Source of the DNA: a virus
Virus record (IMG/VR): IMGVR_UViG_3300004151_000036
Coordinates: 1-27,020 of that record
Strand: one strand, 5' to 3'
Length of the DNA stretch: 27,020 nucleotides
In this document: piece after piece, positions 1-22,521 of the stretch
Numbering within the stretch: position 1 is the stretch's first letter
Layout of the letters: each line of letters opens with the position of its first letter
The notes under the pieces: generated by a model
What the model saw: only the letters and a program-made list of their open reading frames with translations
What the model was told of the DNA's origin: nothing
Database searches by the model: none
Position numbers and translations under genes: made by a program

Positions 1-643
1 GCAACACATCGAGATAGTTGGCCAATTTCCAATAGTTACTATAAGTTGAGCAGTCGGTACTCAGATAGGGCGGGTCAATAAAGAACACAACTTCGGGTAC
101 ATGCTTCCAACGATCAAACAATTGCCTGTAATCCATTTTTACAACTTCAATGCCGTCAATGTAATCGTTTGCGGGTTCGTAGTCATTTTTTCGGACGCAA
201 TTGTACATGCATTGCTTTGATAGATCATTGTAATTTGTAGCATAATTCATACTAAATAACAAGCTACTTGATATAGTGATATAATCAATATATCCGCTAC
301 GCTTTTCTTCCTGTTTTATGGCTTTCAGAATGGCCGCTTTGGCTTCTTTACTTATCACCTTATCAACTGGCGCATCTTTCAGTATAAAGCGAAATTCGGC
401 CAACAGCACGTTGGTTCTTTCTATGTTAGATACACGCAAATGATAATCATCATAATCATTATAGACAACCGTTGCATCCGGATATTGAGACTTAGCCCAA
501 TGGCTCAGTAAACCCGAACCACCAAACAAATCAACAAATACCGGCGCTGTTTTAAACTCGTTTAAAGCCTCTTTAAAGGCAGTACTAAACCGCCGCTTTT
601 GCCCCTGAAAAGGCAGGGGACTTTGATTGTAATTTTTACTCAT
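1..643 (-). CDS. D12-class DNA adenine-N6 methyltransferase (Dam-like), C-terminus cut by window edge
   Basis: This reading frame starts at ATG 643-641 and stays open to the left edge, giving about 214 residues with the C-terminus missing. It shows the D12-class order of motifs: PFQGQK near residues 11-16, the AdoMet-binding FVDLFGGSG at about 36-44, and the catalytic DPPY at 190-193. Proteins of this family methylate adenine N6 in double-stranded DNA, typically in a short site such as GATC. As the last visible gene of the leftward late operon it probably modifies phage DNA against host restriction. It is separated from the gene before it by about 190 bp holding a long hairpin, so its expression may be set apart from that of the tail genes. 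Family assignment is firm; target site and role are inferred. Confidence 0.88.
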   Translation of the reverse strand, partial: MSKNYNQSPLPFQGQKRRFSTAFKEALNEFKTAPVFVDLFGGSGLLSHWAKSQYPDATVVYNDYDDYHLRVSNIERTNVLLAEFRFILKDAPVDKVISKEAKAAILKAIKQEEKRSGYIDYITISSSLLFSMNYATNYNDLSKQCMYNCVRKNDYEPANDYIDGIEVVKMDYRQLFDRWKHVPEVVFFIDPPYLSTDCSTYSNYWKLANYLDVL

Positions 644-708
644 CTTTCTATTTTTTATTTAAAAAACTAATACTATTTTTGTAGTCTCCTACTATTACAT
701 ATATACCA

Positions 709-767
709 AAGGTGCACGAACACCGAGTGAAGACTTTAAGCCTTCGTCTCGGGTGTTCGTGCACCTT
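709..767. repeat. Long GC-rich inverted repeat (stem-loop) in AT-rich intergenic DNA
   Basis: The arms at 709-727 and 748-767 are complementary over 19 bp with a single bulged G. Inside them GAAG and CTTC can pair and extend the stem. Outside, ACATATA (left) and its complement TATATGT (right) can add a further interrupted stem. It lies between a tail-operon gene and the methyltransferase, both read leftward. No U-run follows either arm directly, so it is not a textbook intrinsic terminator. It could be a processing site, attenuator or protein-binding site. Confidence 0.75.
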
Positions 768-829
768 ATATGTTTAGGCGGTGTAGGAGCCGCTTAAATT
801 GGCGGAGGCTTTTTTACCTCCAATTAGGT

Positions 830-1192
830 CTAAAAACTATTATCTATTGCCCTAACGCAATGATTTTTGTCCAACAAACTCAGAAATTTTGTAAACATCC
901 TTCCAAATACGCTGAGCGAGCCAGCAAGCTGGTTCACGCCTAAGAAGTGTGAGATAGTATGTCCATCTGATTTAAATGTGATTCCATTCTTAGTTATAAA
1001 AACTAAGTTCAACAAAGCCCTGAACTCACCACAACCATAAACATCAATCCTTCGGGCAGTATCCAAAAAGTAACCCGACATAGCCTTAATGCTCTTTTTC
1101 TGAATTGTCACAATTACCACATTTAGTGGCGTTAACAACGGAAATAATATCACCGCAATGAGAAATAGCAAGAAATTTATTACTAGTTTCAT
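830..1192 (-). CDS. Small membrane-anchored protein of unknown function
   Basis: I do not recognise this 120-residue protein. Residues 1-30 are strongly hydrophobic (VINFLLFLIAVILFPLL within them) with one basic residue at position 2, consistent with a signal anchor or transmembrane segment. The rest is a mixed polar domain with two cysteines. It begins 2 nt after the fibre gene stops and is clearly co-transcribed with it. Position directly after the fibre could suggest a fibre assembly helper, superinfection exclusion or lysis role, but nothing in the sequence decides between these. Confidence 0.6.
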   Translation of the reverse strand: MKLVINFLLFLIAVILFPLLTPLNVVIVTIQKKSIKAMSGYFLDTARRIDVYGCGEFRALLNLVFITKNGITFKSDGHTISHFLGVNQLAGSLSVFGRMFTKFLSLLDKNHCVRAIDNSF

Positions 1193-1194
1193 AA

Positions 1195-4100
1195 TTATTT
1201 ATTTAATATTTTTACATCAAATCTATGTCGGACTGTGGTTGGATTTGTTATCCAATTTGGTGTCATCCACCTTATGTACAACTGATCACCAGCTATAACT
1301 TCCAAAGGTGAAGACAACTTATAATTTTTAAGAAATTCAGATGTTGAATGAGTCACATCCGTAGCAAATACCTTACTTGTACCTTTGGTATGATTATGAA
1401 TTGCAAAAGTTGAATATTCATTACTTCCTACGGAACCTCCGACGCTAGCCAATAAAGAAACTTCCGTCACATATCCCGAAACCTGACATATCAATGATCT
1501 GGAAACCATATACGTATTAGTTGGTGCTAAATCGGGTATACTACCAATATAATACGATATTCCATCTCCTGGCATTGCTGCTCCGTGAGCAAAATCATAA
1601 ACCACAAAATTATCGGGAATAAGGTCAATCCAATCCTCTAGCGGTTCATAATCAATAAGACTTCGAACATACACTTTCAATTTGTTAGTGACAAAAGACC
1701 TTGTGATCAAAAATTGAGTAATAAAACCGGAATCTTCACCGTCTACTACTATCATCCGGAATGGTATTCCATCTTCGATTCCAACATCAGGAAAGTCTCC
1801 AGGGTAAGTTAATATATAAAATCCATCGGCTGATATTTTATTCAAGTTTTCAATTGCAACATATTCATCGTCGTCGACAATATCAACACTATACTTCTCT
1901 AATTTTCTAGATAACATATTGTTAAAATGGGCGATGATATCATCGTTTCCCTTTTTAATTGCCGCACTTAAATTACGTGATGCTGGAGTAGCAGCTGACT
2001 TCTTTTCCCAGCCTATTTCAGTTTTTACCCAGACGTTTCCTTTATGTTCATGCGTCTGACCCATATAGGCATTCTCCGGAAATGTCAACACATCATCTGT
2101 TGAAATAGGTGTTTTATCAGCATTAATGACAGATTGAACGTTTGAATAAACAATCGCTCCTAACTGATCAACCGCATAGGCTTGTATATATGTGATCCCT
2201 ATTGGGAGGACATTGTCAAGCACAATTACATTTGTCAATGAACTTTCTTTTGTTCTCTTCAAAACGTCAGTTAGAGGTAATTGATTCGAACTCCAAACAA
2301 CGCCCCATTTGATAATAGATAAAGATGTTGAACTTATTATAACCTTTGCCACATTATCCGCTGAATTATAATCCAATTGATGCGTAACATCAAAATCACC
2401 AACAGGATTGGGTAAATAAATACATCTTACAGGAGCTCCAAGAGCCACATCACCTCCATAGTTGGCATATGGTGTAACGTAATACTCTGAAGTATCATTA
2501 TAAAGAGCCCTTTCTCTATAATCTCTATTAATCTCTATTACAGGCTCTTCACTTTCAAAATAATCTATAAAATCGCCAAAATTATCTGGCGGCACAATAG
2601 ATATTCCAATACCTATGTAAAGCACAGGTACTGGCATAGACGTTAATCGAATTGTCGCCCAGGTTCCTTCACTATCTGTAGTAGAACTTACTATGTTAAT
2701 AACTGGTACTAAAGACGTAGAGTCAGCAAGCGTAATAAATGTCATTTCTGAACCGTAATATACCTTGCCAGCAGCAATAGCATATGATCGAACATAATAT
2801 AATTTACCTGACTGTAAAGCTGTTAAATTTGCTTCATAACTACCCAATTTAAGTCCGAGATCAGCACTTGTTTTTAAAGTTGGCTGCGTCATCAAACCGA
2901 CACAAATACCTCGTTCGGTCACTTCTGATTCTGAAGACTCAATTATCGCACTAACTTTTGCACTATTTTTAGTTATCAAAGAAACAGAAAGAGTCTTCAG
3001 ACTCACGCCACCTGTAATAAAACTACCCGATCCAGGACTATATGACCAACCTTTCGATGTGCGCGCAGCTGCTCTGTAATAGAATTTAGAAGCAGCTTTA
3101 AGATTTAATACATTAATATAAAACGTATTATCATCTGTCACTGCAGTTGAATCTATATACGCATCTAAAACTGTCGGCATAATATTTTCAGAACTATAAA
3201 CAAATCCAGTCTGCAAGATAGTACTGCCACCATCAGAGCTAATTCCACCACCTAATATAACAGAACTATCTGTTATATTTGTTGGTAATTTCTCATAAAG
3301 TACTGGATAACCTGCAACCTGCTTTGTCGTAAAATAACCTGTTTTATTTTCTACAGGATGTGCCCAACCTGGCGACAGCTCTTGCCACTGAACATATGTA
3401 CTAGTACTAGAGGTTCCATCTTCAGTAGTGGCATAAACCTGAACATAATACCTTGTAGCCGGCAGTAGCCCAACAAGATTAGCCTCCCATCTTTGCGTAC
3501 TAACATTAATAATTTCAACGTCTTCAACAGCTTCAATTGTTGACCCAATTTTGATGCCTCTGCTAACGATAGACGAATCCCCAGTATCAAAGCAACGAAC
3601 AATTATTTTAGCAGAACTTTGTGTTAAGTTTACTTCAGGAATATCAAGTATCAAAACCGGTAATACAGGCTCATTTAAGGTCGAAAATGACTGCATAGCA
3701 CCATATACATATGTGCCGTTGTTTCGCTTAAAGAATGGGCGGCAAAAATATGTTGTGTCTGGTTCTAAATCAATAACCTCAATGTAAGGAGGATTTCCTG
3801 AATCAAATTTAAACGGATAATCAGTGCCACCATTAACGAATATATCATTAACCGTCGGCAAATTATTAGTTTTGCTAAGACAAATGCCTGAAAATATTAC
3901 ATATGAATCAAGCCAGTAAGTTTCAAAGATAGCCTTTAACTTTCGAGCGCTAGGTATTAAATTGACAATGCCAAAAGAATCGATTGGTTTAGGATCATAA
4001 TTTTCACCGACGAAAACGTACTGATCACCATTTCCACCTAGAACCTGATTTATGTATTCACGCCTCCAATCTGCGCTTCCAAAATAGGTGTCAGTTACAT

Positions 4101-4512
4101 TCCAATGCGCAAATGCATCTTGTTTCGGATTGTAACACATCGATTTGTAATCAGCTGCAACATGTGGAAATGTGTTTTTGTTGGTATCACGAGTTGAATA
4201 GTCGCGAAACACAGTTCTTGCTTCCAGCCTTGCCTCTGAATCATCGACAAACTGAGAATACGAATCGTTAACTGCATAATAATACATAGGCTCTCCGTTG
4301 TAATTCCATACAGGATTAAAAAGTTTAACCTCGAACCAGTTGTCAGAAGAATACCCCGTGAGTCGCCCAACAATGCTATTTTTAAGTACGTAAAATCCTG
4401 AAGAACGCTTTCCTGTTGACTTAAAAACATTATCTTTAATATTGCCTACTGCAATCACAACTAAACCGGCTATAGAGCCGTCATATTTCTTATAAGTATC
4501 TCTTGTTTCCAT
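1195..4512 (-). CDS. Large tail fibre/adhesin with tandem fibronectin-III-like domains
   Basis: This 1105-residue protein is the largest in the window. The N-terminal ~200 residues are a unique region (many Tyr, Trp and Asn) that may attach to the baseplate or form a head domain. From about 200 to 800 there are roughly five repeats of ~90-110 residues. Each ends in a YY(V/R)xxYA-type strand such as TRYYVQVYATTEDG, FYYRAAARTSKG, LYYVRSYAIAAG or ITYIQAYAVDQLG, the hallmark of fibronectin-III-like folds common in Bacteroidetes adhesins. A linker near 850-900 (GQTHEHKGNVWVK) leads to a C-terminal region that may trimerise or bind receptor. It sits at the end of the tail operon, where fibres are found. 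It probably contacts the host surface. It has no DGR variable repeat that I can see. Confidence 0.8.
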   Translation of the reverse strand: METRDTYKKYDGSIAGLVVIAVGNIKDNVFKSTGKRSSGFYVLKNSIVGRLTGYSSDNWFEVKLFNPVWNYNGEPMYYYAVNDSYSQFVDDSEARLEARTVFRDYSTRDTNKNTFPHVAADYKSMCYNPKQDAFAHWNVTDTYFGSADWRREYINQVLGGNGDQYVFVGENYDPKPIDSFGIVNLIPSARKLKAIFETYWLDSYVIFSGICLSKTNNLPTVNDIFVNGGTDYPFKFDSGNPPYIEVIDLEPDTTYFCRPFFKRNNGTYVYGAMQSFSTLNEPVLPVLILDIPEVNLTQSSAKIIVRCFDTGDSSIVSRGIKIGSTIEAVEDVEIINVSTQRWEANLVGLLPATRYYVQVYATTEDGTSSTSTYVQWQELSPGWAHPVENKTGYFTTKQVAGYPVLYEKLPTNITDSSVILGGGISSDGGSTILQTGFVYSSENIMPTVLDAYIDSTAVTDDNTFYINVLNLKAASKFYYRAAARTSKGWSYSPGSGSFITGGVSLKTLSVSLITKNSAKVSAIIESSESEVTERGICVGLMTQPTLKTSADLGLKLGSYEANLTALQSGKLYYVRSYAIAAGKVYYGSEMTFITLADSTSLVPVINIVSSTTDSEGTWATIRLTSMPVPVLYIGIGISIVPPDNFGDFIDYFESEEPVIEINRDYRERALYNDTSEYYVTPYANYGGDVALGAPVRCIYLPNPVGDFDVTHQLDYNSADNVAKVIISSTSLSIIKWGVVWSSNQLPLTDVLKRTKESSLTNVIVLDNVLPIGITYIQAYAVDQLGAIVYSNVQSVINADKTPISTDDVLTFPENAYMGQTHEHKGNVWVKTEIGWEKKSAATPASRNLSAAIKKGNDDIIAHFNNMLSRKLEKYSVDIVDDDEYVAIENLNKISADGFYILTYPGDFPDVGIEDGIPFRMIVVDGEDSGFITQFLITRSFVTNKLKVYVRSLIDYEPLEDWIDLIPDNFVVYDFAHGAAMPGDGISYYIGSIPDLAPTNTYMVSRSLICQVSGYVTEVSLLASVGGSVGSNEYSTFAIHNHTKGTSKVFATDVTHSTSEFLKNYKLSSPLEVIAGDQLYIRWMTPNWITNPTTVRHRFDVKILNK

Positions 4513-4515
4513 AAA

Positions 4516-4752
4516 TTAAAATTCAACCCATTGTCCGTTATACATAGTAAACTCTTTTCCCGAAATTGCCGAAACCCACTTTGCTCCATTGTGAGCATCT
4601 ACTGGAGGAACAGAAGAAATAGAACTGGATGCTTCAACAGCATCAGTTAGAACCTCAATAGCCTCACCAAGGCGTTGATGCGTATTAGCAGCACGCTCTG
4701 TTTCTTGTTTGATAAGCGCAGCTTTAGACTGTGCGTCTGATAACTTTGTCAT
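4516..4752 (-). CDS. Small coiled-coil tail-operon protein, unknown function
   Basis: The 78-residue protein is read from ATG 4752. A longer frame opens at 4833 but would overlap the preceding gene by 77 nt, whereas 4752 lies 4 nt after that gene's stop. Residues ~1-45 are helical and heptad-like (SDAQSKAALIKQETERAANT), followed by a serine/proline linker and a short C-terminal motif (GAKWVSAISGKEFTMYNGQW) resembling tip modules of fibre-associated proteins. It lies between the gpI-like tail protein and the fibre, so it may be a fibre connector or chaperone. No family was recognised. Confidence 0.6.
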   Translation of the reverse strand: MTKLSDAQSKAALIKQETERAANTHQRLGEAIEVLTDAVEASSSISSVPPVDAHNGAKWVSAISGKEFTMYNGQWVEF

Positions 4753-4756
4753 AAAT

Positions 4757-5809
4757 TTAATTGTTAATCGGGCAAGAATCGTTGTTTTCAATTCTTGCTT
4801 CATCTTTTTTAATAAATATCCCAGGATAGTCATTCTGTTTTAAATTAGTTATATACCCAGCATATGCATTGATACGTTCTATATACTCTATCATCGGCAT
4901 CGTAGACAAATAATCAACATCAACACTCTGATAAGTAATGCCATCGAAGACAAATTGGAGCCTAACATCAAAGTCATCAAATCCAATATTCAAGCCTGAT
5001 TCATATTTTATTACTCTTAGCGTTCGAGCACGCTGATGACCTGAATTGACGAAACCAGAGGAGGTTGCAATACTCTTCACAGCCCACGCTAACATGACAT
5101 TTGTTTTAGGAAAAGATATTGTGTTTCCGCCTTGATAGAGCCTAACAGCTATTGCCTCATCAGTAGACTGTTCATCAGAAGACCATAGCTCTTCATTATA
5201 TTGAATTCCTATTTTGTCTCTATTTCCAACAAATTGTTGCAACTCGATGTAACTTGGCAAATGCCAATTACTACCCATACCGGAAGCAATGAGTTTAGAA
5301 GAGCTCCAATTATGCCTTCCAAGAGGAGAAACAATTTGATATTGAACACCAATAATGGCACCAACATATCCTCCACTATAATATTCACCAATTTGTAGTT
5401 GTTTCTTTTCGCATACGTAATTAGTCCAAACCACATCGTAAGCATATGTAGACTGTTCGGTCGAAAATCGTTTTCCATATAGCTTATATTTGTTTATTAA
5501 ACTTTGGAGCCGACTATAATCAACTGTTACAGATTCAGGTATATTAATTATAAAATCAGTTGATATGCCATCTGCATCGGTAATATAAATTACACGATTG
5601 AAAGTATTCAGTAATCGATAATTCAGCATAAGCTCTAAATACATCACTTGACAAGTAGTAGATGCCTGTAATCTGATATCAGCCTGCCATGCACGGAACT
5701 CATCGTACATAAGTTGAAATACAGCACCAATAGCGGTAATCGCTGTCATGTCACGACGTAATAACGTGGGAAACAATAGCTTAAGTAATCTTTTAAAGTC
5801 GATATTCAT
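4757..5809 (-). CDS. gpI-like tail/baseplate protein carrying a DUF1566-like (C-type-lectin-type) insertion
   Basis: This 350-residue protein follows the baseplate J gene directly, the place of P2 gpI / Mu gp48. The N-terminal ~140 residues (LLKLLFPTLLRRDMTAITA onward) and the C-terminal ~90 residues look like the tail protein proper. Between them, about residues 140-265, lies a block with the DUF1566 pattern: GGYVGAIIG, a WHLPSYIELQQF strand, then ELWSSDE and a closing WAVKSI. DUF1566/Lcl domains have a C-type-lectin-like fold and occur in surface and tail proteins. The protein probably links the baseplate wedge to the fibre and may display a second binding face. The neighbour order supports the gpI role; the inserted-domain call is by motif only. 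Confidence 0.65.
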   Translation of the reverse strand: MNIDFKRLLKLLFPTLLRRDMTAITAIGAVFQLMYDEFRAWQADIRLQASTTCQVMYLELMLNYRLLNTFNRVIYITDADGISTDFIINIPESVTVDYSRLQSLINKYKLYGKRFSTEQSTYAYDVVWTNYVCEKKQLQIGEYYSGGYVGAIIGVQYQIVSPLGRHNWSSSKLIASGMGSNWHLPSYIELQQFVGNRDKIGIQYNEELWSSDEQSTDEAIAVRLYQGGNTISFPKTNVMLAWAVKSIATSSGFVNSGHQRARTLRVIKYESGLNIGFDDFDVRLQFVFDGITYQSVDVDYLSTMPMIEYIERINAYAGYITNLKQNDYPGIFIKKDEARIENNDSCPINN

Positions 5810-6681
5810 TATATTTCCGTTTGTGGTTGATAATTTACGTTGATTTCATTCACTACAAACCAGCCGCTTTGGCTTGCATAAGTTCCCCATGTTACAGGTT
5901 CTAGGTCGCGAATTACACAACTCGTTATTTGAACATCAATCACACCTTCGGCCATTTGAACCCGATCGATCAGCTTCGACAAGTTCAGTTTACCTCCAAA
6001 ATTAATATCGTTGAGTGTGTTAATAAATTCATTAACAGCATCCTCTACAGGGTGATCAGTTCCTGTTATCCTTTGCCCTGTTTGTTTAAGGATGAGTGGA
6101 TTGTAGTTGACAACTAATCCAAACGAAACAGTATCCCCTGCAGTACTGATGCACTCAACAAGCACCCCGGCAGGCCTTATTTTTTTAGCATATATATCAA
6201 ACAGTTCCAAGTCATTTGAACTAAGAGCCTCAATTGTTCCATTCGATTCTGTTGCAACGTATAACTTCACCTTACAAGGAGCTTCTCCACTTGCAGATTC
6301 ACGAACTGCAACGCGCTTTATAATCTGCCGAGACGCATCTAACGTTGCGTATTCGTAGGTAAATGTTTTTTTATTTAGGTACAAATCATCTCCTCTTTGA
6401 AATTGCAAAGCCTGAGTATGCCACCATGGAGAAGTTGCCAAATATCTAGCATCAATCTTATCTTGAATTTCTGCTTTAAATATATCAATTACAAGCTCAA
6501 AAACATATATGCAGTAGCCGACAGCATAAAAAAGAATCGATTCAAATGCTGCAATGCTAAACACAGCACTGAACCCGGCTTCGAGATCAGAACTACTAAG
6601 CTCATACCTGCGCTGAACTATTTCATTGCTCATGTAATAATCACCGATTTTGTTTTTCCAATATGTTGCTGTGTTTGCCAT
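5809..6681 (-). CDS. Baseplate wedge protein J (Mu gp47 / P2 gpJ type)
   Basis: I take ATG 6681, which starts 1 nt after the preceding stop (6683) and gives MANTATYWKNKIGDYYM and 290 residues. A frame opening at 6744 would overlap the LysM-like gene by about 60 nt. The middle contains the baseplate-J-like pattern of an RVAVRESASGEAPCKVKLYV strand region and a GVLVECISTAGDTVSFGLVV segment. The C-terminus has a helical segment and GVIDVQITSCVIRDLEPVTW, as in J proteins that end by contacting gpI. gpJ forms the wedges of contractile-tail baseplates. It overlaps the following gpI-like gene by one base (5809), as expected for partners made in fixed ratio. Confidence 0.72.
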   Translation of the reverse strand: MANTATYWKNKIGDYYMSNEIVQRRYELSSSDLEAGFSAVFSIAAFESILFYAVGYCIYVFELVIDIFKAEIQDKIDARYLATSPWWHTQALQFQRGDDLYLNKKTFTYEYATLDASRQIIKRVAVRESASGEAPCKVKLYVATESNGTIEALSSNDLELFDIYAKKIRPAGVLVECISTAGDTVSFGLVVNYNPLILKQTGQRITGTDHPVEDAVNEFINTLNDINFGGKLNLSKLIDRVQMAEGVIDVQITSCVIRDLEPVTWGTYASQSGWFVVNEINVNYQPQTEI

Positions 6682-6682
6682 G

Positions 6683-6952
6683 TTAATTAAATGTATAATC
6701 AAATGTGTAATCAAATATTCTTTTTTCTTCGTCTTTAGATGCATTTATGCCAGTCGATGGCCTTAATCCTTTGCTTGAAAAGTATTGCTTAATAGGTGCA
6801 GCTACAACATTTAACGTATCAATGTCAGTAGTGGTCAGAGGCTCATCTGTTATGCTCATATCCGCTTTAAGTGCAATAAAATACGCTGAATCAACCGAGC
6901 CAGTCTCCTGAATAGCAATATCTAAAAACGATTGTCCTTCGAGTGCTTTCAT
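6683..6952 (-). CDS. Small LysM-like tail/baseplate protein (gpX-like)
   Basis: The 89-residue protein begins with a LysM-like stretch: GQSFLDIAIQETGSVDSAYF followed by ALKADMSITDEPL. This matches the 'qsllDIA...GSv...A.aNglsitdel' layout seen in phage gpX/LysM proteins, which hold the baseplate hub or tail tube end and may touch peptidoglycan. Its start overlaps the previous gene by 4 nt (ATGA at 6949-6952) and it lies 1 nt from the J gene, so it is made as part of the baseplate set. The C-terminus repeats FDYTF twice (residues ~80-88). The LysM call is by pattern only. Confidence 0.6.
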   Translation of the reverse strand: MKALEGQSFLDIAIQETGSVDSAYFIALKADMSITDEPLTTTDIDTLNVVAAPIKQYFSSKGLRPSTGINASKDEEKRIFDYTFDYTFN

Positions 6953-7269
6953 TCTCCTACAACTTCATCCACATAGTTTTTCAATGCTTTTCTATCAGCA
7001 AGAAATTGCATATATGCAACTTCAGCAGCTACGTCGCCAATGCCGAGCTTGTACTCGTTGTAGTCATTAATTAGCTTCGCTTCAACGCCATCGCCCCATT
7101 TTTCAGATATGGCAATTGCTTTGATTTTTTTAGCATCAATCGCACCGTCAATTCTCACTTCGTGAGCCGTGAATCCACCATCTACCTGTAGAATGTCGAA
7201 TCGAAAAAGATGATAACCATCAGGAACTAGCTCCAGGGATATCGGCATAGTTTTATACGTTACTATCAT
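6949..7269 (-). CDS. Small baseplate-operon protein of unknown function
   Basis: I do not recognise this 106-residue protein. It is acidic, without membrane segments. The N-terminal half is rich in beta strands (PISLELVPDGYHLFRFDI), and the C-terminal half is helical (VAAEVAYMQFLADRKALKNY). It is the first gene after the DGR template-repeat region and overlaps the LysM-like gene by 4 nt, so it belongs to the wedge/hub assembly block. It is too short for, and does not resemble, a DGR reverse transcriptase. It also lacks the long four-helix look of the accessory protein Avd, although that cannot be excluded by eye. Confidence 0.55.
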   Translation of the reverse strand: MIVTYKTMPISLELVPDGYHLFRFDILQVDGGFTAHEVRIDGAIDAKKIKAIAISEKWGDGVEAKLINDYNEYKLGIGDVAAEVAYMQFLADRKALKNYVDEVVGE

Positions 7270-7540
7270 ATATTTTAATTTATCACTTTAAACTCTTTGC
7301 TTTACTTTAATCGCCTTCGCTTGCGCTACCAACGATCTTGTTTTTATGTATTTTTTGCCAAGAGGCAGGGTTTTCATTACATCAAAAATTTACAATGCTG
7401 GGAGCTGATGGTCGAATTCGCATTCGAAGGCGAATTATTCGTATTCGAATAAACGAGACCTGCATTCGAACTATTCGTAGCATTACCGCCAAACAACACA
7501 CTTGCAATGAACAACCTTTTTTAACAAAGCCCCGCGAACG
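7270..7540 (-). ncRNA. Noncoding region carrying the DGR template RNA
   Basis: These 271 bp between the variable-protein stop and the next gene hold no convincing gene, and the template repeat occupies 7393-7503. By analogy with known DGRs, a transcript read in the leftward direction through this region would be the template for mutagenic reverse transcription. The flank beyond the repeat (7270-7392) would be the 3' part of that RNA. It holds only a small stem, TGCC/GGCA around 7370. I see no clear promoter of its own, so it may be read through from the tail operon. Confidence 0.7.
7393..7503 (-). repeat. DGR template repeat (TR)
   Basis: This 111-bp segment aligns without gaps to 7551-7661 (constant offset 158 bp). 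It differs at 17 positions, and at all 17 the template base is T on the plus strand, i.e. A on the coding strand. Translated in the variable protein's frame, it has eight Asn (AAT) codons in the variable stretch, plus Tyr, Ile, Ser, Gln and His codons at the other changed sites. AAY-rich templates are typical of DGRs, because adenine mutation of AAY reaches many amino acids without making stop codons. Confidence 0.95.
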
Positions 7541-9064
7541 CTAAATAAAGCAAAGCCGGGAGCCGACGGTCGAATACGCATTCGAAGGCGAACGATCCGT
7601 AGTCGAACAAACGAGACCCGCAGCCGAACTATACGTAGCATAACCGCCAAACAACACACCCTTAATAACTGATGCTGAAATGTCGCGATAGAAATAGTCG
7701 GCAAAATAAGTAGCGGATGATCCACCGACAGTAGTCGGCATTATATCTCCAGATGCTCCGAACAAAATTGTTTTGATAAATCCTTCATCACGGGCAATTA
7801 AGCCTTTATAATCGTAGTCAGTAAAAGCTACAGAGCTAAATTTTGAAGCATCAGAGCTAGTGTATAATTTACTTGTACCACCAGCTGCATCTGTTTTTAC
7901 GTCGACCAAAACGCCATCCATCCATTTCCATAAATGGCCAAACGGATTTTCAATGCCGCGATATCGGTTAGCTGTAAACGATCTGTTCACCCCTGCACCA
8001 CCAAAATCCGTGACAGTAAATGACACTTCACCACTACCATTGCCGAGCGAATTAGTAACCCCGCAATTACAGAATGGATTGCGTCCATTGAAGTTTAACC
8101 ATTCGGTATCGTTCGCCATTGTTATTCCATTTCCCAATCCACCTGTACGATAGCCATTAGCATCTAATCCAGCAATAGGCAACTGAGAATTTAACGTAGC
8201 ATACTCAACTGCAAAAAGCCAGAATATTTGCGTTTGAATTGAATATACATTACAATTCCATCTGATAGAGCCCTTGTTTCTCGCATAGATTCTAAAATTT
8301 GTCAGATTTATGTTTGTAACAGGTTTTCCCAATAATGATTTAGATGTACCATCATAAGTAGCTTCGTTTGTACCACCCCTATATGTCGTGCTAGTATTTA
8401 CCACACTGCACAATCTATTAGTAGTCCTATTCAATGATGCTTCAAATGCCGATACATATTCATCCTGAATAAGTGTATATCCGGGAATTTGTCTGTCCGA
8501 ATATCTGACATCCCAAACAATAGGTGTTATCTTTTCGCATTTAAAATATCGCCTAGGCAGATGAACTTGTACATCTCCATCAGTTCCATCGAGAACCGAT
8601 GCAGTTCCATCTGATTTTTGCGCCCAGTTTGTCGGATTCAAATAATAATTAACTGATCCGTCCTCTTTTTGCAAACAACCCCTCATTAACTTATGAATCG
8701 GTAAGGTTTTATGTAGTTCAAGATTTCCTATCCTTGTAAGTGTTGGATTTGAACTCAACAAGTCAACTCGAACACCGTAACTAAATTGAGCCTCTATCAA
8801 AGTAGTCCAATCAGCGGTATTACTGACAGAGGCGTTAACGAAAAAATTTTTTATGGCTGTACGGAAGGTATCATAATCGGGGTATGGATTGCCATTGGCA
8901 TCACATACATTATTTATATTTTCCGTCAGCACTTTTTCTGAATAACGAGTCAATACTATACTACCTGTTAGTTCATTAATATCACGTGTAAATCCGTCTG
9001 ATGAATACTCCTTTGAGCCAATTACACATACATTTAAATCTGAATCATAATATACCTTTGTCAT
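7541..9064 (-). CDS. DGR-diversified tail tip/receptor-binding protein with C-terminal C-type-lectin-like fold
   Basis: The start is ATG 9064 (MTKVYYDSDLNVCVIGSKEY), which gives 507 residues; a frame opening at 9124 would run into the preceding gene. The N-terminal ~140 residues look like a baseplate-attachment and linker part. From about 250 the protein shows sulfatase-modifying-factor/C-type-lectin-like marks: FNGRNPFCNCGVTNSLGNG, RYRGIENPFGHLWKWMDG, and a final LFGGYATYSSAAG leading to GSRLCFI. In DGR target proteins this fold displays the variable residues on a rigid scaffold. Here residues 468-505 are the variable repeat, so the binding face can change between phage generations. The gene sits between the gp25/W-like and J genes, so the product probably belongs to the baseplate tip or tail fibre. 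The function as receptor binder is inferred from the DGR. Confidence 0.9.
   Translation of the reverse strand: MTKVYYDSDLNVCVIGSKEYSSDGFTRDINELTGSIVLTRYSEKVLTENINNVCDANGNPYPDYDTFRTAIKNFFVNASVSNTADWTTLIEAQFSYGVRVDLLSSNPTLTRIGNLELHKTLPIHKLMRGCLQKEDGSVNYYLNPTNWAQKSDGTASVLDGTDGDVQVHLPRRYFKCEKITPIVWDVRYSDRQIPGYTLIQDEYVSAFEASLNRTTNRLCSVVNTSTTYRGGTNEATYDGTSKSLLGKPVTNINLTNFRIYARNKGSIRWNCNVYSIQTQIFWLFAVEYATLNSQLPIAGLDANGYRTGGLGNGITMANDTEWLNFNGRNPFCNCGVTNSLGNGSGEVSFTVTDFGGAGVNRSFTANRYRGIENPFGHLWKWMDGVLVDVKTDAAGGTSKLYTSSDASKFSSVAFTDYDYKGLIARDEGFIKTILFGASGDIMPTTVGGSSATYFADYFYRDISASVIKGVLFGGYATYSSAAGLVCSTTDRSPSNAYSTVGSRLCFI
7551..7661 (-). repeat. DGR variable repeat (VR)
   Basis: This is the mutated copy of the template repeat and encodes residues 468-505 of the 507-residue tail protein, ending two codons before its stop. 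Template-to-variable changes include Asn to Tyr at 475, 478 and 497; Asn to Ala 481, Thr 488, Asp 490 and Arg 491; Tyr to Cys 486; Ile to Val 500; Ser to Gly 469 and 501; Gln to Arg 503; and His to Leu 504. One Asn (495) is unchanged, and one change (codon 482) is silent. Homology stops close to the stop codon, where the initiation-of-mutagenic-homing site would be expected. Confidence 0.95.
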
Positions 9065-9075
9065 AATTCTGTATT

Positions 9076-9396
9076 TTAATAATTTGCATTTATTACCAAT
9101 TTCCCATCCTTGCCAAACCCACACGAATTCACCGTTTGCCCATCTTCACGAAGATTTGCACGAATTTCGCGAAGCAAGTCCGAAGGGTCATCATCATCGA
9201 TAAATGAAGCTAACCCGACACCCATCGTAGGAGCTTCTTTTATTTCGCCTTTTTGAGCTAGTATAATCGTGCGTTGATTTTGCCGGGTTACATCTCCAAT
9301 CTGAAAGCCGGAAACTATTTTCCCTTCAGCATCCCGAACGACTTTGATATCCAACTCCATGTTTTCAGTCAATAATATGCCTTTGTCTTTTGCCAT
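9076..9396 (-). CDS. Baseplate wedge subunit, gp25/W-like (Mu gp46 type)
   Basis: The 106-residue protein carries the gp25-like pattern in its second half: PTMGVGLASFIDDDDPSDL, then LLREIRANLREDGQTV. This matches the 'P..GvGl..~l......l...I...l..D' layout of the small wedge protein that starts sheath assembly in contractile tails. It lies directly between spike and variable-protein genes, and shares one base with the spike gene stop (9396). Length is close to Mu gp46/P2 gpW. Assignment is by layout and neighbours. Confidence 0.65.
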   Translation of the reverse strand: MAKDKGILLTENMELDIKVVRDAEGKIVSGFQIGDVTRQNQRTIILAQKGEIKEAPTMGVGLASFIDDDDPSDLLREIRANLREDGQTVNSCGFGKDGKLVINANY

Positions 9397-9917
9397 TAGT
9401 GTTTAATTTTCATATTCTCAATTTCCGAATAATCACCTAATTGTTTCCCTGTAATTGCTCCTTTTAATGCCGCTTGTAATGCACTGGGCGAACCGTTACC
9501 TGGTTCCGGTATTGGAGTTCCTGAAATAACCGATATCAAAGCCTGAAGCAATGAGTTTGTTTTATCCAATTCATCTACCAGTTTGGGCGTTATGGTCAAT
9601 CCACCATTTTCCCCACCATCAAACACCACACTTTCAAGCTCTGAAAACATCTCCACAAACAACTCATCACTATCACCAATACGACTAACGATAACCGAAG
9701 AGTTTCTAGTAGGAGTTATCACACATCCTTTTTTAGCATCATCCCCAGTTCCAACTGAAGCACGTTTTCTGACATCAGGATAAAGTGTCCCGGATAAATC
9801 TTTTACATCAATGTAATCTTTGTCCGGATAGTTATTTTCGACAACGCCCAGGAATGTTTTTTCATTCCCGGCACCGAGCTTTTGAATAGCCTTTTTAATT
9901 CTTTCTTCAGGTGTCAT
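9396..9917 (-). CDS. Baseplate assembly/spike protein, gpV-like (Mu gp45 type)
   Basis: The 173-residue protein begins with a helical segment, then an OB-fold-like stretch: FLGVVENNYPDKDYIDVKDL, followed by GCVITPTRNSSVIVSRIGDS. The end is Gly/Ser/Pro-rich (GTPIPEPGNGSPSALQAAL) and short, so the spike tip would be small. gpV proteins trimerise into the membrane-piercing spike beneath the hub. It overlaps the hub gene by 4 nt (9914-9917) and the wedge gene by 1 nt, the usual D-V-W order in Mu and P2. No His-x-His iron-binding tip is visible, although the protein ends in a histidine. Confidence 0.65.
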   Translation of the reverse strand: MTPEERIKKAIQKLGAGNEKTFLGVVENNYPDKDYIDVKDLSGTLYPDVRKRASVGTGDDAKKGCVITPTRNSSVIVSRIGDSDELFVEMFSELESVVFDGGENGGLTITPKLVDELDKTNSLLQALISVISGTPIPEPGNGSPSALQAALKGAITGKQLGDYSEIENMKIKH

Positions 9918-10909
9918 AACTTCACTGTAAATTCAACCGTTCTACGTCCACCGCCTTTGTCAGCTTTTACCGTTGTTTTCGTAATATAATAAGTTCCGTC
10001 GCGTTCCTGGTATTTTGGGTCACTTAGTTTCCCTTTCATTCCAACCGTTGCAAATGGTTGTAAAAAAGTGGTTATCTTACCTTCGTAACCCGAATACTTA
10101 TACTTTTTTATTTCTTCAGTAGCCAATTTTTTAAGCTCAGCAACATTCGATACGTTATAAAAGAAAAGTGTTCGTTGACTTCCTTCTTTATCTCCTACCT
10201 CAGCTTCAACCTTTGTGTTGTCCGGCTTAATCCACACGGCTTTTATTTTAAGGCTTACATCATCGGCACTTCGATATTTCAGATCATCAGCATTGATTGT
10301 ATTGTAGCCCAACTTGTATTTTACCGTTCCGTTGTCAATCACATAAGCAAGCCCGGCATACAATGTTTTCCCCATAAAGAAAACCGCCACTCCATACTTT
10401 TCCTTCAGAACCTGTAAAGCTTCAAGACAGGTTATATTTGCCGGTATAATGTACTTAGTAAAATTGATTGCCGGTATGTTATCGCTCAAAACTATATCAG
10501 TGCCTTTTATAATGTGCTTCAAGACTTCCAACATGGTAGTTTTCGACCACGTTTTTGTTTCGCACGGTCTTCGCAATTGGAACTCATATCCTTCGCATTC
10601 AATTTCAAGCGGAGTTTTATAGTTTATCCGATAAATGAAACCTTCCAATTCCAGTTTGAAATCGTTGTTATAAGCTAACCAAATACTTATTTTATCGCCT
10701 CTACTGAACTGCGTAGCCGTCTGAACGCTTTCACCGACTTTCTTATCTTTATACACCAGGCGCGCTGATGTTGGTATGCTAAATTTTGCAGGTTGATTAA
10801 TTTTAAAAATGTCGTGTTCGCACTCAACAGCATGAAATGCATCAAAGGATATCTTTTTGTTATCCGATTTGCGTACTATTTCAAAATGTCCACGAAGTTT
10901 GACGTACAT
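9914..10909 (-). CDS. Baseplate hub protein, gpD/gp27-like (Mu gp44 type)
   Basis: The 331-residue protein is beta-rich. It contains GDKISIWLAYNNDFKLELEG, then GFIYRINYKTPLEIECEGYE, a feature of tail hub proteins that share the T4 gp27 fold (late control gene D family). A helical region follows (LEVLKHIIKGTDIVL, CLEALQVLKEKYGVAVFF), also typical of that family. The last ~50 residues (GTYYITKTTVKADKGGGRRT) form a strand-turn-strand end like those that contact the spike. One base overlaps the DUF6046-like gene. The hub joins the tail tube to the spike. Confidence 0.72.
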   Translation of the reverse strand: MYVKLRGHFEIVRKSDNKKISFDAFHAVECEHDIFKINQPAKFSIPTSARLVYKDKKVGESVQTATQFSRGDKISIWLAYNNDFKLELEGFIYRINYKTPLEIECEGYEFQLRRPCETKTWSKTTMLEVLKHIIKGTDIVLSDNIPAINFTKYIIPANITCLEALQVLKEKYGVAVFFMGKTLYAGLAYVIDNGTVKYKLGYNTINADDLKYRSADDVSLKIKAVWIKPDNTKVEAEVGDKEGSQRTLFFYNVSNVAELKKLATEEIKKYKYSGYEGKITTFLQPFATVGMKGKLSDPKYQERDGTYYITKTTVKADKGGGRRTVEFTVKL

Positions 10910-11541
10910 TATTCTATAATCAATTTAAATTCAATATCACTTACCAAATCACACTCAAACGCTTGCATATTTTTAAATCCTTTCACTTCAGGAAATTTCA
11001 AATTTTTCACAACAACTTTTTCGTTGTCCTCGAACAATAGCGATGTTCTTGCATTTTCAATCTCGAGCGATTCACTTGTTTTATACAGCTGCCTAAGGTC
11101 TGATACTTGCTGATCAGGATAATCCATATCAGGTGAAATAATGATACCTTTTACATTTATCTCCCAGTCATCAATTGAAATTTCTTCCTTTACAGAACCC
11201 TGTTGATTGACAAGCTGCGTTTCAACTATTGTTTTTTTGCTGACAATGGATGAAACTGTATTCTGAAGCATAAACTTTGTACCATCAGACTTAATCAACC
11301 AAATAGGCAAAAACACTTCATTGCCGTTATTATTTTGTCCGTAAAAAGGTGAACCTTTAATATTATATTCCCGACGTTCCGAAGGTTGCGCGAAGCTATA
11401 TTCCGAAGATTCCGAACTTCCACCAAATATCTTTTTTTCAACTGAATTTTGCAACCCAAACAGGAACGGAGCTGGAGCATATCCCCAAACACTTTTGAAA
11501 ACATCAACTAAATCAAACTCATTGAAATTATACTTATTCAT
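10909..11541 (-). CDS. DUF6046-like baseplate/tail protein
   Basis: The 210-residue protein follows the tape measure gene directly and shares one base with it. It has the features I associate with DUF6046 proteins of Bacteroidetes phages: an N-terminal helical part, then EVFLPIWLIKSDGTKFMLQN, a KKTIVETQLVNQQGSVKEEI strand pair, and the WEINVKGIIISPD segment before YPDQQVSDLRQLY. In Mu-like order this place is taken by gp43, a baseplate hub-cap/circularisation-type protein. Its role is likely to join tape measure and hub. The DUF assignment is from memory and should be treated as provisional. Confidence 0.6.
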   Translation of the reverse strand: MNKYNFNEFDLVDVFKSVWGYAPAPFLFGLQNSVEKKIFGGSSESSEYSFAQPSERREYNIKGSPFYGQNNNGNEVFLPIWLIKSDGTKFMLQNTVSSIVSKKTIVETQLVNQQGSVKEEISIDDWEINVKGIIISPDMDYPDQQVSDLRQLYKTSESLEIENARTSLLFEDNEKVVVKNLKFPEVKGFKNMQAFECDLVSDIEFKLIIE

Positions 11542-13223
11542 TACTCCGTTGCCAAATTGTTAGCACTATTCAATACCTGAGACATCACCTCAATCACAAT
11601 ATCCTTAATTTTTCCAGCACCTTCAGTTACATTAGTTGATTGAACCGTAATACTACCAACCATTTCTTTGTTTAGATTAATGGTTATATTTGTAGGCTTA
11701 CTTCCACCACCGGCAATGCTTTTTATTTTATCATCCGGATTTATTGACCCACCTGTTGTGTTTGCACCTGCTAATGAACTACCACCACCTATTAACGAAC
11801 TTGCACTTAAACCACTCGCTTTGCTTTTTACACCATTGTTATAGCCCTTTGCCCACGTTTCGCCAATTTTCGAACCGTTATCTTTAGCAGCTTTTACAAG
11901 ACCCTGACCACCGTAGCTATTTGCAAATCCTGAAGCTGCTTGTTTTGCACCTGATTTTACTTTATTCCAGTCAGCTGAAAATATACCTTTTATTATTTCA
12001 CCTAAACCTGAAAACATGTCAACCAGACCTTTTACTGTATTTACAACAGCATCTTTTAGAAATGTAACAAATAGCTTGAACGTTTCCCAAAGCCCCATTA
12101 CACCGCCTCTGAACCATGCGAATTTATTCCAGGCAATAACGATCATTGCAATTAAAGCAGCAATACCAATTATTATCAATCCAATAGGATTCAACATCAT
12201 TGTACCGTTTAAAATCGCTTGAGCAATAGTCCACATCTTAATTCCCCAGGTTATAAGCTTAAACGCTGCAAATGCACTTAAAGCAACACCGGTTAACTGC
12301 AACAACATGTCCGAATTTTGTCCAATCCAATCAACCATCGGCATCAGAAAATTCATAAGACTGCTAGCATACGGTAAAAGTTTGAGCCCAATTTCAGCAC
12401 CTGTTTGGCGTAAAGTTCCAACCAATGTTGAAAATTTACCTGAAGCCGTTTGGCTCATTTTATCCATCATGCCAAAGAATAACCCGCCTTTGCTTGTTGC
12501 ATGTTGAAATGCACCTTCAATCATTTCTGCAGATATCTTTCCACCTTCCATTTCTTTGCGAAGCGTAGCCATGCTTTTACCTGTCATTTTTTGCAGTTCC
12601 TGAAGCGGGTTAAACCCGGCATTAATCATCTGCAATAAATCCTGACCCTGTAATTTACCGGCACTGAACATTTGAGAGAAAGCAAGTGTCAAAGAACTCA
12701 TTTTGTTGGCATCACCCATAGCAATATCACCAAGCATTTTCAGATGAGGCAAAATCTTTTCGGCTGAAGTACCAAACGAAAGCATCATTTTAGCATTATC
12801 AATCAGCCCTTTGTTTTCGTATGGTGTGTCATTTGCAAACTTATTAATGCCGTCGAGCATTATTTTTGCTTTTTGAGCACTTCCAAGAAGTACATCGAAA
12901 CTTATTTTTGATTGCTCAAGATCGGCTCCCATCTTTACGATAGCTTTAACCCCCTGAAACAATGCCATTGCACCAACAACATTTCGGATACTTCCGGCTA
13001 AATCATTAGTGCTGTTATTTGATTCACGAACCCGGTCAATATATCCCCGCCATGATTGCCCAGCTCTATCAATTGCCCGCTGTGCAATTGTCATTGAACG
13101 TTGTGTGTTACTTCCAACTTCGTTTGTACTTCGCGATACATTTTCGGCAGCACGGGCAGCGTTTTTCAAAACGCCACTTAACAGGTCACGTGCTCGTAAT
13201 ATGTATTCAACACCGGTACTCAT
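11541..13223 (-). CDS. Tail tape measure protein
   Basis: The 560-residue protein has the composition of a short tape measure. The N-terminal ~80 residues are helical and Ala/Arg/Ser-rich. A conserved-looking core at ~100-280 includes FDVLLGSAQKAKIMLDGINK and FSQMFSAGKLQGQDLLQMIN, the latter shared with TP901/lambda-type tape measures. Strong hydrophobic segments occur at ~305-365 (LTGVALSAFAAFKLITWGIK and LNPIGLIIIGIAALIAMIVI) and probably help DNA cross the inner membrane. A Gly/Ser-rich C-terminus follows. Its ATG (13223) overlaps the frameshifted chaperone stop (13222-13220). Its length sets tail length; 560 residues suggests a tail of well under 100 nm. Confidence 0.88.
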   Translation of the reverse strand: MSTGVEYILRARDLLSGVLKNAARAAENVSRSTNEVGSNTQRSMTIAQRAIDRAGQSWRGYIDRVRESNNSTNDLAGSIRNVVGAMALFQGVKAIVKMGADLEQSKISFDVLLGSAQKAKIMLDGINKFANDTPYENKGLIDNAKMMLSFGTSAEKILPHLKMLGDIAMGDANKMSSLTLAFSQMFSAGKLQGQDLLQMINAGFNPLQELQKMTGKSMATLRKEMEGGKISAEMIEGAFQHATSKGGLFFGMMDKMSQTASGKFSTLVGTLRQTGAEIGLKLLPYASSLMNFLMPMVDWIGQNSDMLLQLTGVALSAFAAFKLITWGIKMWTIAQAILNGTMMLNPIGLIIIGIAALIAMIVIAWNKFAWFRGGVMGLWETFKLFVTFLKDAVVNTVKGLVDMFSGLGEIIKGIFSADWNKVKSGAKQAASGFANSYGGQGLVKAAKDNGSKIGETWAKGYNNGVKSKASGLSASSLIGGGSSLAGANTTGGSINPDDKIKSIAGGGSKPTNITINLNKEMVGSITVQSTNVTEGAGKIKDIVIEVMSQVLNSANNLATE

Positions 13224-13749
13224 CGTTTATTTGCTTCAGCTTCTTTTTTACGGATATAATCAAGTTGAGCCACTTTGTCAGCCCATTGTTTATCGGTTAA
13301 ATGCGAGACATCGTAACCTAAGTAGTATTCTAATTGGGTCGACAATAAGCCGACCCAATCACTTTGTACATTCTCCGAAGCCTCGCTTAGAAGTTTTTTA
13401 GTTCTGTCTCTTTAAACTCAATCAACTCTCCGGCTTTTACACAGGCGTTGAACCAAAGGGTTTCATCCTTTTTGATTTCTTCAGAACCTCCCAGCCAACA
13501 ATTAGTTAATACAGCTTCACCGGTTTTCATCAGTTTACCCATATTCATTTCAATGTCGCTGCCATCGTTTTCGCCTTTCGACATTTTGAACGACATTTGA
13601 CTGAGAGCGTAACTGGTAGTTTGACGGTCTATTTTACGAACATAAGCAATGTGTCCATCCACAATTACACCGTGAACTTTGCCGTATTTAGCTTTCCACT
13701 GTTCAATTTGATCAGGCGTTACTTCGCCCACAAAAGTTACTTTTTCCAT
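13220..13749 (-). CDS. Tail assembly chaperone G-T, made by -1 ribosomal frameshift
   Basis: This is a predicted 176-residue product. It has residues 1-119 of the 120-residue protein G, then after -1 slippage on A AAA AAC (13399-13393) a 57-residue extension in the overlapping frame (LLSEASENVQSDWVGLLSTQ onward, ending EANKR). The extension frame stays open until a TGA overlapping the tape measure ATG. It has a stop (TAA) just upstream of the slip site and no ATG of its own, so it is unlikely to be expressed separately. Phages of the lambda, P2 and Mu groups make a G/G-T pair in exactly this place to load the tape measure. The frameshift is inferred from sequence only. Confidence 0.82.
13387..13749 (-). 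CDS. Tail assembly chaperone G (unshifted form)
   Basis: The 120-residue protein ends ETELKNF just after the slippery site. It lies between the tail tube gene and the tape measure gene, the fixed place of tail chaperone G (lambda G, Mu gp41). The N-terminus (TFVGEVTPDQIEQWKAKYGK) and a central MNMGKLMKTGEAVLTNCWLG segment resemble the phage-tail-chaperone folds found upstream of tape measures in Bacteroidetes phages. It binds the tape measure during tail assembly and is not kept in the virion. Start is ATG 13749, 2 nt after the tube gene stop. Confidence 0.8.
   Translation of the reverse strand: MEKVTFVGEVTPDQIEQWKAKYGKVHGVIVDGHIAYVRKIDRQTTSYALSQMSFKMSKGENDGSDIEMNMGKLMKTGEAVLTNCWLGGSEEIKKDETLWFNACVKAGELIEFKETELKNF
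13393..13399 (-). promoter_or_regulatory. -1 frameshift slippery heptamer A AAA AAC
   Basis: In the reading direction the codons CTA AAA AAC contain A AAA AAC in the correct X XXY YYZ phase, six bases before the protein G stop. Shifting by -1 opens the 57-codon extension. A stem with a perfect 9-bp arm pair (13333-13341 with 13351-13359, 9-nt loop) begins about 33 nt downstream of the slip site. A weaker stem starts directly after it. Either could aid slippage. Confidence 0.82.
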
Positions 13750-13751
13750 GA

Positions 13752-14168
13752 TTAATAAGGAGATGTTGTGTTATACTTGATTTTTTTAGTAAACAATGGA
13801 GTAGTTATTTCCATGAATTTAGCACCTTGTTCCATGGCTTTTTCAATTTCCATAAACTGACATCCTTCGCAAATATCAGTTACGATCTTTGCACCGACAT
13901 TATTTTCAGGAATAAACGAATGCACGATTGTAAAAGGTGGAATTTTAAAAGGATCACCACCACCGGCTGATATAATCGCTTCCATTTCCGACTGGAGTAA
14001 TTTTACTTCACTCGAATACTTTTTATTGCCATAACCCACATCAACAGGCTCATCACCTTCAGCGTAAATAGGTTCAATCTCACGCTCTGATTTGTACTTA
14101 AATCCGGTTATCCCGGTTACAAACCGACCGCCCATAAAACAGCGGTATTCTGACCAACTATATGCCAT
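13752..14168 (-). CDS. Tail tube protein
   Basis: The 138-residue protein directly follows the sheath gene (12 nt gap) and precedes the chaperone gene, the fixed place of the tail tube in contractile-tailed phages. It is beta-rich: a start region YSWSEYRCFMGGRFVTGITG, a charged loop (KSEREIEPIYAEGDEPVDVG), then KYSSEVKLLQSEMEAIISAG, all compatible with the single-domain tube fold shared by T4 gp19 and Mu gpM. Hexameric rings of this protein stack into the inner tube. Length matches the family. Confidence 0.78.
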   Translation of the reverse strand: MAYSWSEYRCFMGGRFVTGITGFKYKSEREIEPIYAEGDEPVDVGYGNKKYSSEVKLLQSEMEAIISAGGGDPFKIPPFTIVHSFIPENNVGAKIVTDICEGCQFMEIEKAMEQGAKFMEITTPLFTKKIKYNTTSPY

Positions 14169-14180
14169 AATTTTGAATTA

Positions 14181-15335
14181 TTATTTGTTTACAAAACTCA
14201 ACACCACTTCTATAGGATTCAAATAACCTTTAGGAGTGATATTCAAATACATTTTTTGAGCGTTACCGGAAAGAATGTCGATAGTTGCGTCAATTTGAGC
14301 AGTGAATTTCGATATTTCACCTTTCATAGAGTCATTCACCTGGTCCTCTATCTTTTGCTTAAGATAGGCACATACTGAAGCGTGAAGCGTTCCATCATCA
14401 TTTACTTCAACATCATCGTCCAACTCTTCAACATAGGTATTGTAAGCAATTTTAAGAGCCTTGTCAATGGTTCTGATACGAGCAATCATATTCAGATCAT
14501 CAGTGGCAGATGTAGCCGTAAAGTCACCATTGAAGTAATAACCGGCGCGACCCGGGAACTGGCGAGCTATGATATATCCTTTGTCGTGAATTGTACCTAA
14601 GTCCTCACGTCCGGCAATGGCTAAACCATCACTCAAGTAAGCCGTATCGACAGGCAAAGCACCATTTTTTACACGCGATATTTTGCGCTGAACTGCTATG
14701 GCTGCTAACTGACCAAGCACCGAACCAATAGATGCTGATTTATCATTTTTTGAAGAGAACAAAACCGTACTGGTACGATAATTTGATTCGGCACGTAAGC
14801 TGGCCAATGCATCAACACCAGTCATTTTCCTGCCTTCAACAACCAAGACAAAAGGCATAATTTTAGCCAGATAATCCATTGCCAATACCTGACCCTTTGT
14901 ACGGGCGGTTTTCACTTCAGAATCAAGTCCGTCAACAGTAGCCCCGCCATCGGTTGAAGCTGCTATACCCAAAGCTGCTATTTCGCCATTAGCTGCATTC
15001 AAAATGAGTTTTGCAGGGCAAACCAAAAGCGTAGAATCTACCATTTCGGAAAGCTTAGTAGTAGCAGCCACAAGCATAATCCAAAGCTTTGCGCCCGTAC
15101 CGGCTATTGCATAAAACTCAGAAATATGCCTGTAAGCATTTGCATTCGAAGTCGTACTAATGCCTAATTCATTTGCTCCATCTGTGGAGTAAATAGCTTT
15201 AGGCTCATTGAGCGCAATTTTGTCGACAACAGCAACACCGGGCAATATCATTGCCACAGTATTGTCGTTTGTTTCGGCAACTAAGCCTAGTCCGTTACGG
15301 ACAAGGCTTATTGATACGTTTGGTAATCCGGTCAT
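14181..15335 (-). CDS. Contractile tail sheath protein (DUF2586-like)
   Basis: The 384-residue protein has the usual composition of short sheath proteins: an N-terminal strand region (ISLVRNGLGLVAETNDNTVA), a middle alpha/beta domain with MDYLAKIMPFVLVVEGRKMT, and a well-conserved-looking C-terminal domain. That domain includes GRAGYYFNGDFTATSATDDL and IRTIDKALKIAYNTYVEELD, typical of sheath C-terminal domains that pack against the tube. It lies immediately upstream of the tube gene. It marks the virion as a myovirus-type particle. The DUF2586 label is from memory. Confidence 0.82.
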   Translation of the reverse strand: MTGLPNVSISLVRNGLGLVAETNDNTVAMILPGVAVVDKIALNEPKAIYSTDGANELGISTTSNANAYRHISEFYAIAGTGAKLWIMLVAATTKLSEMVDSTLLVCPAKLILNAANGEIAALGIAASTDGGATVDGLDSEVKTARTKGQVLAMDYLAKIMPFVLVVEGRKMTGVDALASLRAESNYRTSTVLFSSKNDKSASIGSVLGQLAAIAVQRKISRVKNGALPVDTAYLSDGLAIAGREDLGTIHDKGYIIARQFPGRAGYYFNGDFTATSATDDLNMIARIRTIDKALKIAYNTYVEELDDDVEVNDDGTLHASVCAYLKQKIEDQVNDSMKGEISKFTAQIDATIDILSGNAQKMYLNITPKGYLNPIEVVLSFVNK

Positions 15336-15338
15336 GGC

Positions 15339-15722
15339 TTACAGGGTATAATATTCGGGTTTTTTACCTACTTTTTTACCATGCTCAGATGCAAGATCGG
15401 ACTTAGTAAACCAATATCCATTAACCGGGCAACGCCAAATTTCTTTGATGTATTGAGCTCTCATCAATTCTTCAGCTTCAGCCGAGAAATCAACTACATC
15501 AGGCTTCGCAACATCTTCGGTAGTAGTTTCCGGAGCTTCCACATCTGCAACCACCTCAGTAGTTTCGGTAGGAGCTTCAGTAGCTTGCATATCTGCAACC
15601 GTTTCAGTTACTTCAGTAGATTCCACATTGGTAACTTCCTGAGTTGTTTTGGTAGTAGCTGCAGCAACTTCTACTTTTTCTTTTTGTTCGACAACAGGTG
15701 TCGTATTTGTTTTCTTTGCCAT
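15339..15722 (-). CDS. Low-complexity Thr/Glu/Val-rich protein with short C-terminal Cys/Trp motif
   Basis: Residues ~1-85 of this 127-residue protein are a Thr/Glu/Val/Ala repeat-like tract (runs of TTEVVADVEAPE type) with almost no hydrophobic core, probably disordered. The last ~40 residues form a compact motif, EIWRCPVNGYWFTKSDLASE followed by HGKKVGKKPEYYTL. It starts 1 nt after the previous stop and precedes the sheath gene by 3 nt. The position would suit a small head-tail connector or tail completion factor, but I recognise no family. The DNA coding for the tract is itself repetitive, and such stretches change length easily. Confidence 0.6.
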   Translation of the reverse strand: MAKKTNTTPVVEQKEKVEVAAATTKTTQEVTNVESTEVTETVADMQATEAPTETTEVVADVEAPETTTEDVAKPDVVDFSAEAEELMRAQYIKEIWRCPVNGYWFTKSDLASEHGKKVGKKPEYYTL

Positions 15723-15723
15723 T

Positions 15724-16723: not shown

Positions 16724-16729
16724 ACCATT

Positions 16730-17697: not shown

Positions 17698-17776
17698 TTC
17701 TTTAGGTTTAGCGTACTCACCATTCACATGGTAAGTACGCTGTTGGAAAAACTAACTATTTAAACAAAAAAAGTAT

Positions 17777-18799: not shown

Positions 18800-18869
18800 A
18801 CCTTTCAAACTAATTTATATTATACTTTAAATTCACTTCGCAACGCACTTCGTAGGCTTCGCATTTGAT

Positions 18870-19946: not shown

Positions 19947-19975
19947 TTTATTCGAAATAATTTTCGACAAAGTAA

Positions 19976-22520: not shown

Positions 22521-22521
22521 T

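Follow-up and report, generated by a model that had tools for sequence, protein, structure and literature searches.

Adenine-specific repeats at the end of a tail gene

How can the end of a phage tail gene bear the marks of a diversity-generating retroelement (DGR) when no reverse transcriptase (RT) is encoded beside it? In the window, the whole 27-kb stretch of viral DNA analysed here, the minus strand carries a gene with an ATG start for a 507-aa tail protein (7541..9064). Its last codons form a variable repeat, VR2 (7551..7661, residues 468-505), and a non-coding template repeat, TR2 (7393..7503, minus strand), lies outside the gene, 47 bp downstream of VR2; from the end of VR2 to the end of the gene there are 10 bp, stop codon counted. 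Alignment of the template (7503->7393) with the variable copy (7661->7551) on the minus strand revealed 17 mismatches over 111 bp without gaps, and all 17 fall at template adenines (A>G 10, A>T 4, A>C 3), every non-A template position being conserved. Given 28 adenines among the 111 template bases, this corresponds to a Fisher P of 4.7e-13. Outside the two repeats identity between the flanks collapses, and a repeat search returned the pair as the longest direct repeat of the window. Seven of the eight template Asn (AAT) codons are altered in VR2. The first-pass annotation had described these adenine-only differences, the altered Asn codons and the residues affected, and its description was exact. 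Its claim of DGR mutagenic homing is strongly supported by the adenine-only changes, except that a complete DGR of the BPP-1 type is not what the window holds, RT and accessory gene being absent from it. Downstream of the VR, BPP-1 is known to have a DNA hairpin; its counterpart is weak in the window (-1.9 kcal/mol) and strong in two related phage records, G036 (-8.8) and G061 (-9.8).

The target had also been called a C-type-lectin-like tail protein. The assignment as a tail protein stands (phrog_5302, E 1.1e-107), whereas a search of the C-terminal domain for the C-type lectin (CLec) fold gave no Pfam, NCBIfam or PDB sequence match. An AlphaFold model built on a 20-sequence alignment had a mean pLDDT of 55, with values below 40 over nearly all of VR2, too poor for the PDB fold search made with it to be meaningful. 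By analogy with BPP-1, it is reasonable to suppose that the window phage may switch host receptor specificity by changing this protein.

A structured RNA in place and an RT gene missing

Profile searches, six-frame translation and an RT profile of our own detected no RT in the 27-kb window, and no accessory protein, Avd or other, is encoded in the 47 bp between VR2 and TR2. The cassette therefore needs an RT from elsewhere. What stands in the usual place of the RT gene is a gene for a 106-aa protein (6949..7269, minus strand; phrog_11557) with weak similarity (E 0.003) to the gene that follows the RT in a cis-type locus, L002.

Between this gene and the template we found an RT-17 structured RNA (Rfam RF03020; 7293..7372, minus strand) that starts 20 bp past TR2 and scores 44.7 bits against a cut-off of 40.4. 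Our own RNA model, R1, gave the window copy, itself among the sequences used to build the model, 69 bits (E 4e-13). The RNA has kept its fold, and among 48 TR-flanking copies each of the 10 predicted pairs showed double-sided changes. The spacer RNA behind the TR of BPP-1 recruits bRT-Avd and primes cDNA synthesis (PMC12875486), and by analogy RT-17 is the putative element for recruiting the RT and priming the cDNA here. Since RT-17 occupies the same place as the BPP-1 spacer, a suitably specific RT could work on TR2 RNA produced at another place. A BPP-1 target placed on a separate plasmid was edited in E. coli (PMC12875486).

The window copy resembles RT-17 in scoring above the Rfam cut-off and differs in its neighbourhood, an RT gene being next to nearly all sampled copies. 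In a pattern sample of viral contigs, an RT gene lay directly downstream of 114 of 119 RT-17-type sites, and the remaining five comprised two RT-less cassettes (G061 and G101), two sites cut by contig ends and one chance match. L214 was rejected as an RNA copy, being a chance pattern match with no model score, and L272, L279, L322 and L363 were rejected as RT-less loci, the RT missing merely through contig ends. Among relatives of the tail gene an RT was found close downstream in 63 of 79 loci; the exceptions with at least 5 kb to inspect were G001, G036, G103 and L346. The tail gene of L346 (record G105) belongs to the same family and has a VR-like end, no TR nearby and an RT more than 10 kb off. 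A search of the 10 kb around that RT found no remote TR for it.

The variable repeat has changed recently

Searching IMG/VR with a degenerate TR/VR pattern returned a sole match, G001, the 38,986-bp uncircularised record of locus L001. Window and G001 have in common a module at 1..8893 (minus strand; 97.7% DNA identity) with the tail end and the TR2/VR2 cassette, and the rest of the two records is strongly diverged. Differences climb steeply in the first 400 bp of the window, which hold 103 of 206. Constancy of the template together with adenine-limited variation of the variable copy had been proposed as the check on related genomes, and G001 provided the part of it that assembled sequences allow: TR2 differs at 0 of 111 positions, the 47-bp spacer between VR2 and TR2 is identical, and VR2 differs at 13 positions (11.7%), all 13 at template adenines. 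Across positions 600-8893, the two VR2 alleles compared (n=2) differ at 13 of 111 bases and the remainder at 87 of 8183 (about 1%; P 6e-10). The window repeats are those of a DGR that mutated recently.

One RT per phage, at a distance from the cassette

The gene set of G001 includes a repressor, a MuA-like transposase, MuB, terminase, portal, sheath and tape measure, so the record is close to a whole Mu-like genome. It has a single RT (9323-10363), located by TR1, an RNA copy and two small target genes. Its RNA copies lie at 9284 and 31053, and the tail cassette is 21 kb from the RT. G036 (35,209 bp) shows the arrangement again with a tail protein of only 47% identity and carries RNA copies at 8405 and 28292, the latter being the satellite, and one RT at 8704, 20 kb from its cassette. 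The gene order of G061 is TR1, RT, tail gene, VR2, TR2 and second RNA, with its single RT 1 kb from the cassette. Each of the three thus has one RT, beside a TR1 that serves two other genes, in uncircularised records beyond whose ends a second RT could lie. The RTs situated 20-21 kb from a cassette show IGNYLSQ and YADD motifs.

Comparison of templates and variable copies in these three records (best 60-bp stretch) showed that TR1 with VR1a and VR1b, and TR2 with VR2, agree at 100% of non-A positions, while crosswise (TR1-VR2, TR2-VR1) the agreement is 57-70% of non-A positions. Each TR fits only its own VRs; the template of VR2 is therefore the TR2 RNA itself.

From this arrangement we infer that the resident RT acts on TR2 in trans, and we think it probable that the window cassette is an exchangeable DGR module devoid of RT and served by the RT of the phage in which it resides. 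The TR2 RNA with its 3' RT-17 element would be bound by a DGR RT whose gene lies at another place of the phage genome, next to the TR1 of the early region that diversifies two other small genes. This RT would make errors opposite adenines as it copies TR2, and the resulting cDNA would take the place of VR2 at the end of the tail gene. Tail gene, VR2, TR2 and RNA would then travel together as an RT-less module, exchanged among phages within the tail region.

The RNAs themselves call for some caution here. The satellite RNA of G001 has a local score of 30 with the resident RNA of G001 and of 81 with that of G061, and the window copy likewise resembles the G061 resident RNA more than the G001 one. 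The RT behind the recent VR2 changes may therefore not be the one G001 encodes; they may stem from an RT like that of G061, brought perhaps by a co-resident phage or by the donor of the module. A within-genome likeness of the RNAs, which would point to adaptation to the RT of that genome, is unsupported for G001. Together with the trans activity between loci proposed for Thiohalocapsa PB-PSB1 (PMC10907252), these similarities speak for diversification of VR2 by the RT of the host or of a co-resident prophage. We regard this as unlikely, because each of the three satellite records with an RT has just one DGR RT, encoded by the phage itself, and an outside helper is unneeded.

In the RT tree, satellite-carrying RT records fell in three separate places; the place of L002 was disregarded, its branch being implausibly long, probably owing to a wrong frame. 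A small gene of phrog_19665 lies next to the RT in G001 and after the satellite RNA in G061. It is conserved (L039 2258-2575, L286 6855-7160) and may encode an accessory protein, with no Avd match in the profiles used. The relatives also delineate a large phage DGR family with two small adjacent targets (phrog_11581), one TR, an RT-17-like RNA and an RT (L039 112-657 and 688-1065, L054-L133), which takes in most of the 80 RT relatives examined, almost all of them metagenomic.

Other RT-less cassettes and the question of decay

Further RT-less cassettes were found in G101 and G103. In G101 (L261 8713-9200) a 12-codon ORF, MKRLGILHIQLA*, stands where RTs start with MKRLGN or similar; it resembles a remnant left by deletion of the RT, and no RT was detected within 34 kb. 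G103 carries a satellite cassette with no RT in 28 kb. An RT contig, G104, is filed under the same IMG isolate number, and from the record names we would guess that the two are one prophage.

The truncated frame of G101 is what a decayed DGR would leave, and in Epsilonunovirus phages that lost the RT, retrohoming has been taken to be lost as well (PMC11054128). Applied to the window, decay would mean that RT and accessory gene were lost and that the differences in VR2 are a fossil of mutation that no longer occurs. We find this improbable. VR2 has diverged between the window and G001 at template adenines only, by 11.7% as compared with about 1% in the surrounding module, beside an unchanged TR2; moreover, the RNA has kept its fold, and phages bearing the cassette have an RT elsewhere.

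A Mu-like backbone that probably gained its tail module

The phage backbone occupies 9075..27020 with genes for baseplate, tape measure, sheath, lysozyme, head, terminase, portal and Mu F, and its DNA is 80-88% identical to that of G035. Pfam matches to Mu-like phages were above the cut-off for PF06074 and PF05069, at it for PF07030 and below it for PF04233. The window contains the Mu-type portal, F, gp36 and morphogenesis genes; the MuA/MuB transposition genes are absent from this fragment and present in G001. Two features of the backbone are recorded here in their own right. An imperfect 48-bp repeat in three copies (15516-15647) lies in a small gene adjoining the tail-sheath gene, and an N6/N4 DNA methyltransferase gene (22501-23433) lies between terminase and the Mu gp36 homologue, a place where none was found in G035. 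An Lcl_C match of the gene at 4757-5809 was weak, under the Pfam cut-off, and was discarded; that gene has no repeat.

G035, the closest record to the window backbone, lacks tail gene and cassette: the homologue of 9076-9396 is followed directly by the homologue of 6683-6952. Its RT lies 1.66-2.66 kb past the point matching the last base of the window. On the simplest view of this comparison, the window acquired its tail module by recombination, and the contig ends just short of the resident RT. That the cassette instead belongs to an ordinary complete DGR, its RT missed near TR2 or lost at the contig end, is very improbable, and for the surroundings of TR2 it is already refuted. In its favour, the window is a fragment and in most relatives the RT directly follows the RNA. 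Against it, TR2 and the RNA are situated well within the contig, 7 kb from its end, with intact phage genes after them, six-frame translation shows nothing RT-like, and the same 9-kb module in G001 has no RT within it.

Relation to known DGRs

The locus agrees with BPP-1 in the adenine-specific change from TR to VR at the 3' end of a tail gene and in the structured RNA after the TR. It departs from it in that avd, TR and RT form one operon there, whereas the window cassette has neither RT nor accessory gene. Hankyphage of Bacteroides (PMC6199706, PMC12135933) is likewise a Mu-like phage with a DGR acting on a tail gene; its one RT adjoins TR and VR, whereas here the cassette of TR, VR and RNA is apart from the RT. 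Variable genes far from the RT have been described in Treponema, cyanobacteria and Thiohalocapsa (PMC4891356, PMC7517822, PMC10907252), but the VRs of these remote targets are explained by a TR on the RT side, and the window target comes with a TR and an RT-17 RNA to itself. DGRs with several TRs exist, such as that of Stenotrophomonas SKA14 with two (PMC6642488); in the present case, in contrast, the second TR lies about 20 kb from the RT, has its own RNA and moves separately. Remote targets, multiple TRs per DGR and trans activity via a common TR are thus already described, and Roux et al. 2021 themselves state that remote targets would be missed. In the papers searched, outside the subscription literature, no description turned up of a separate cassette that keeps a TR and an RNA to itself and lacks an RT.

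Beyond this phage, we consider it rather likely that DGRs include exchangeable modules of template plus target with their own RNA, which any resident DGR RT would serve in trans, so that one RT diversifies several unrelated genes from different templates and such modules are missed by surveys anchored on the RT gene. Should a detached template indeed be served in trans, the targeting of DGRs would be modular: a gene could turn hypervariable on acquiring a TR and its RNA element, without an enzyme to itself. RT-less cassettes would then not be dismissed as dead, and targets would be undercounted by RT-anchored surveys. The two RNAs under one RT would also be natural data on what the RT recognizes.
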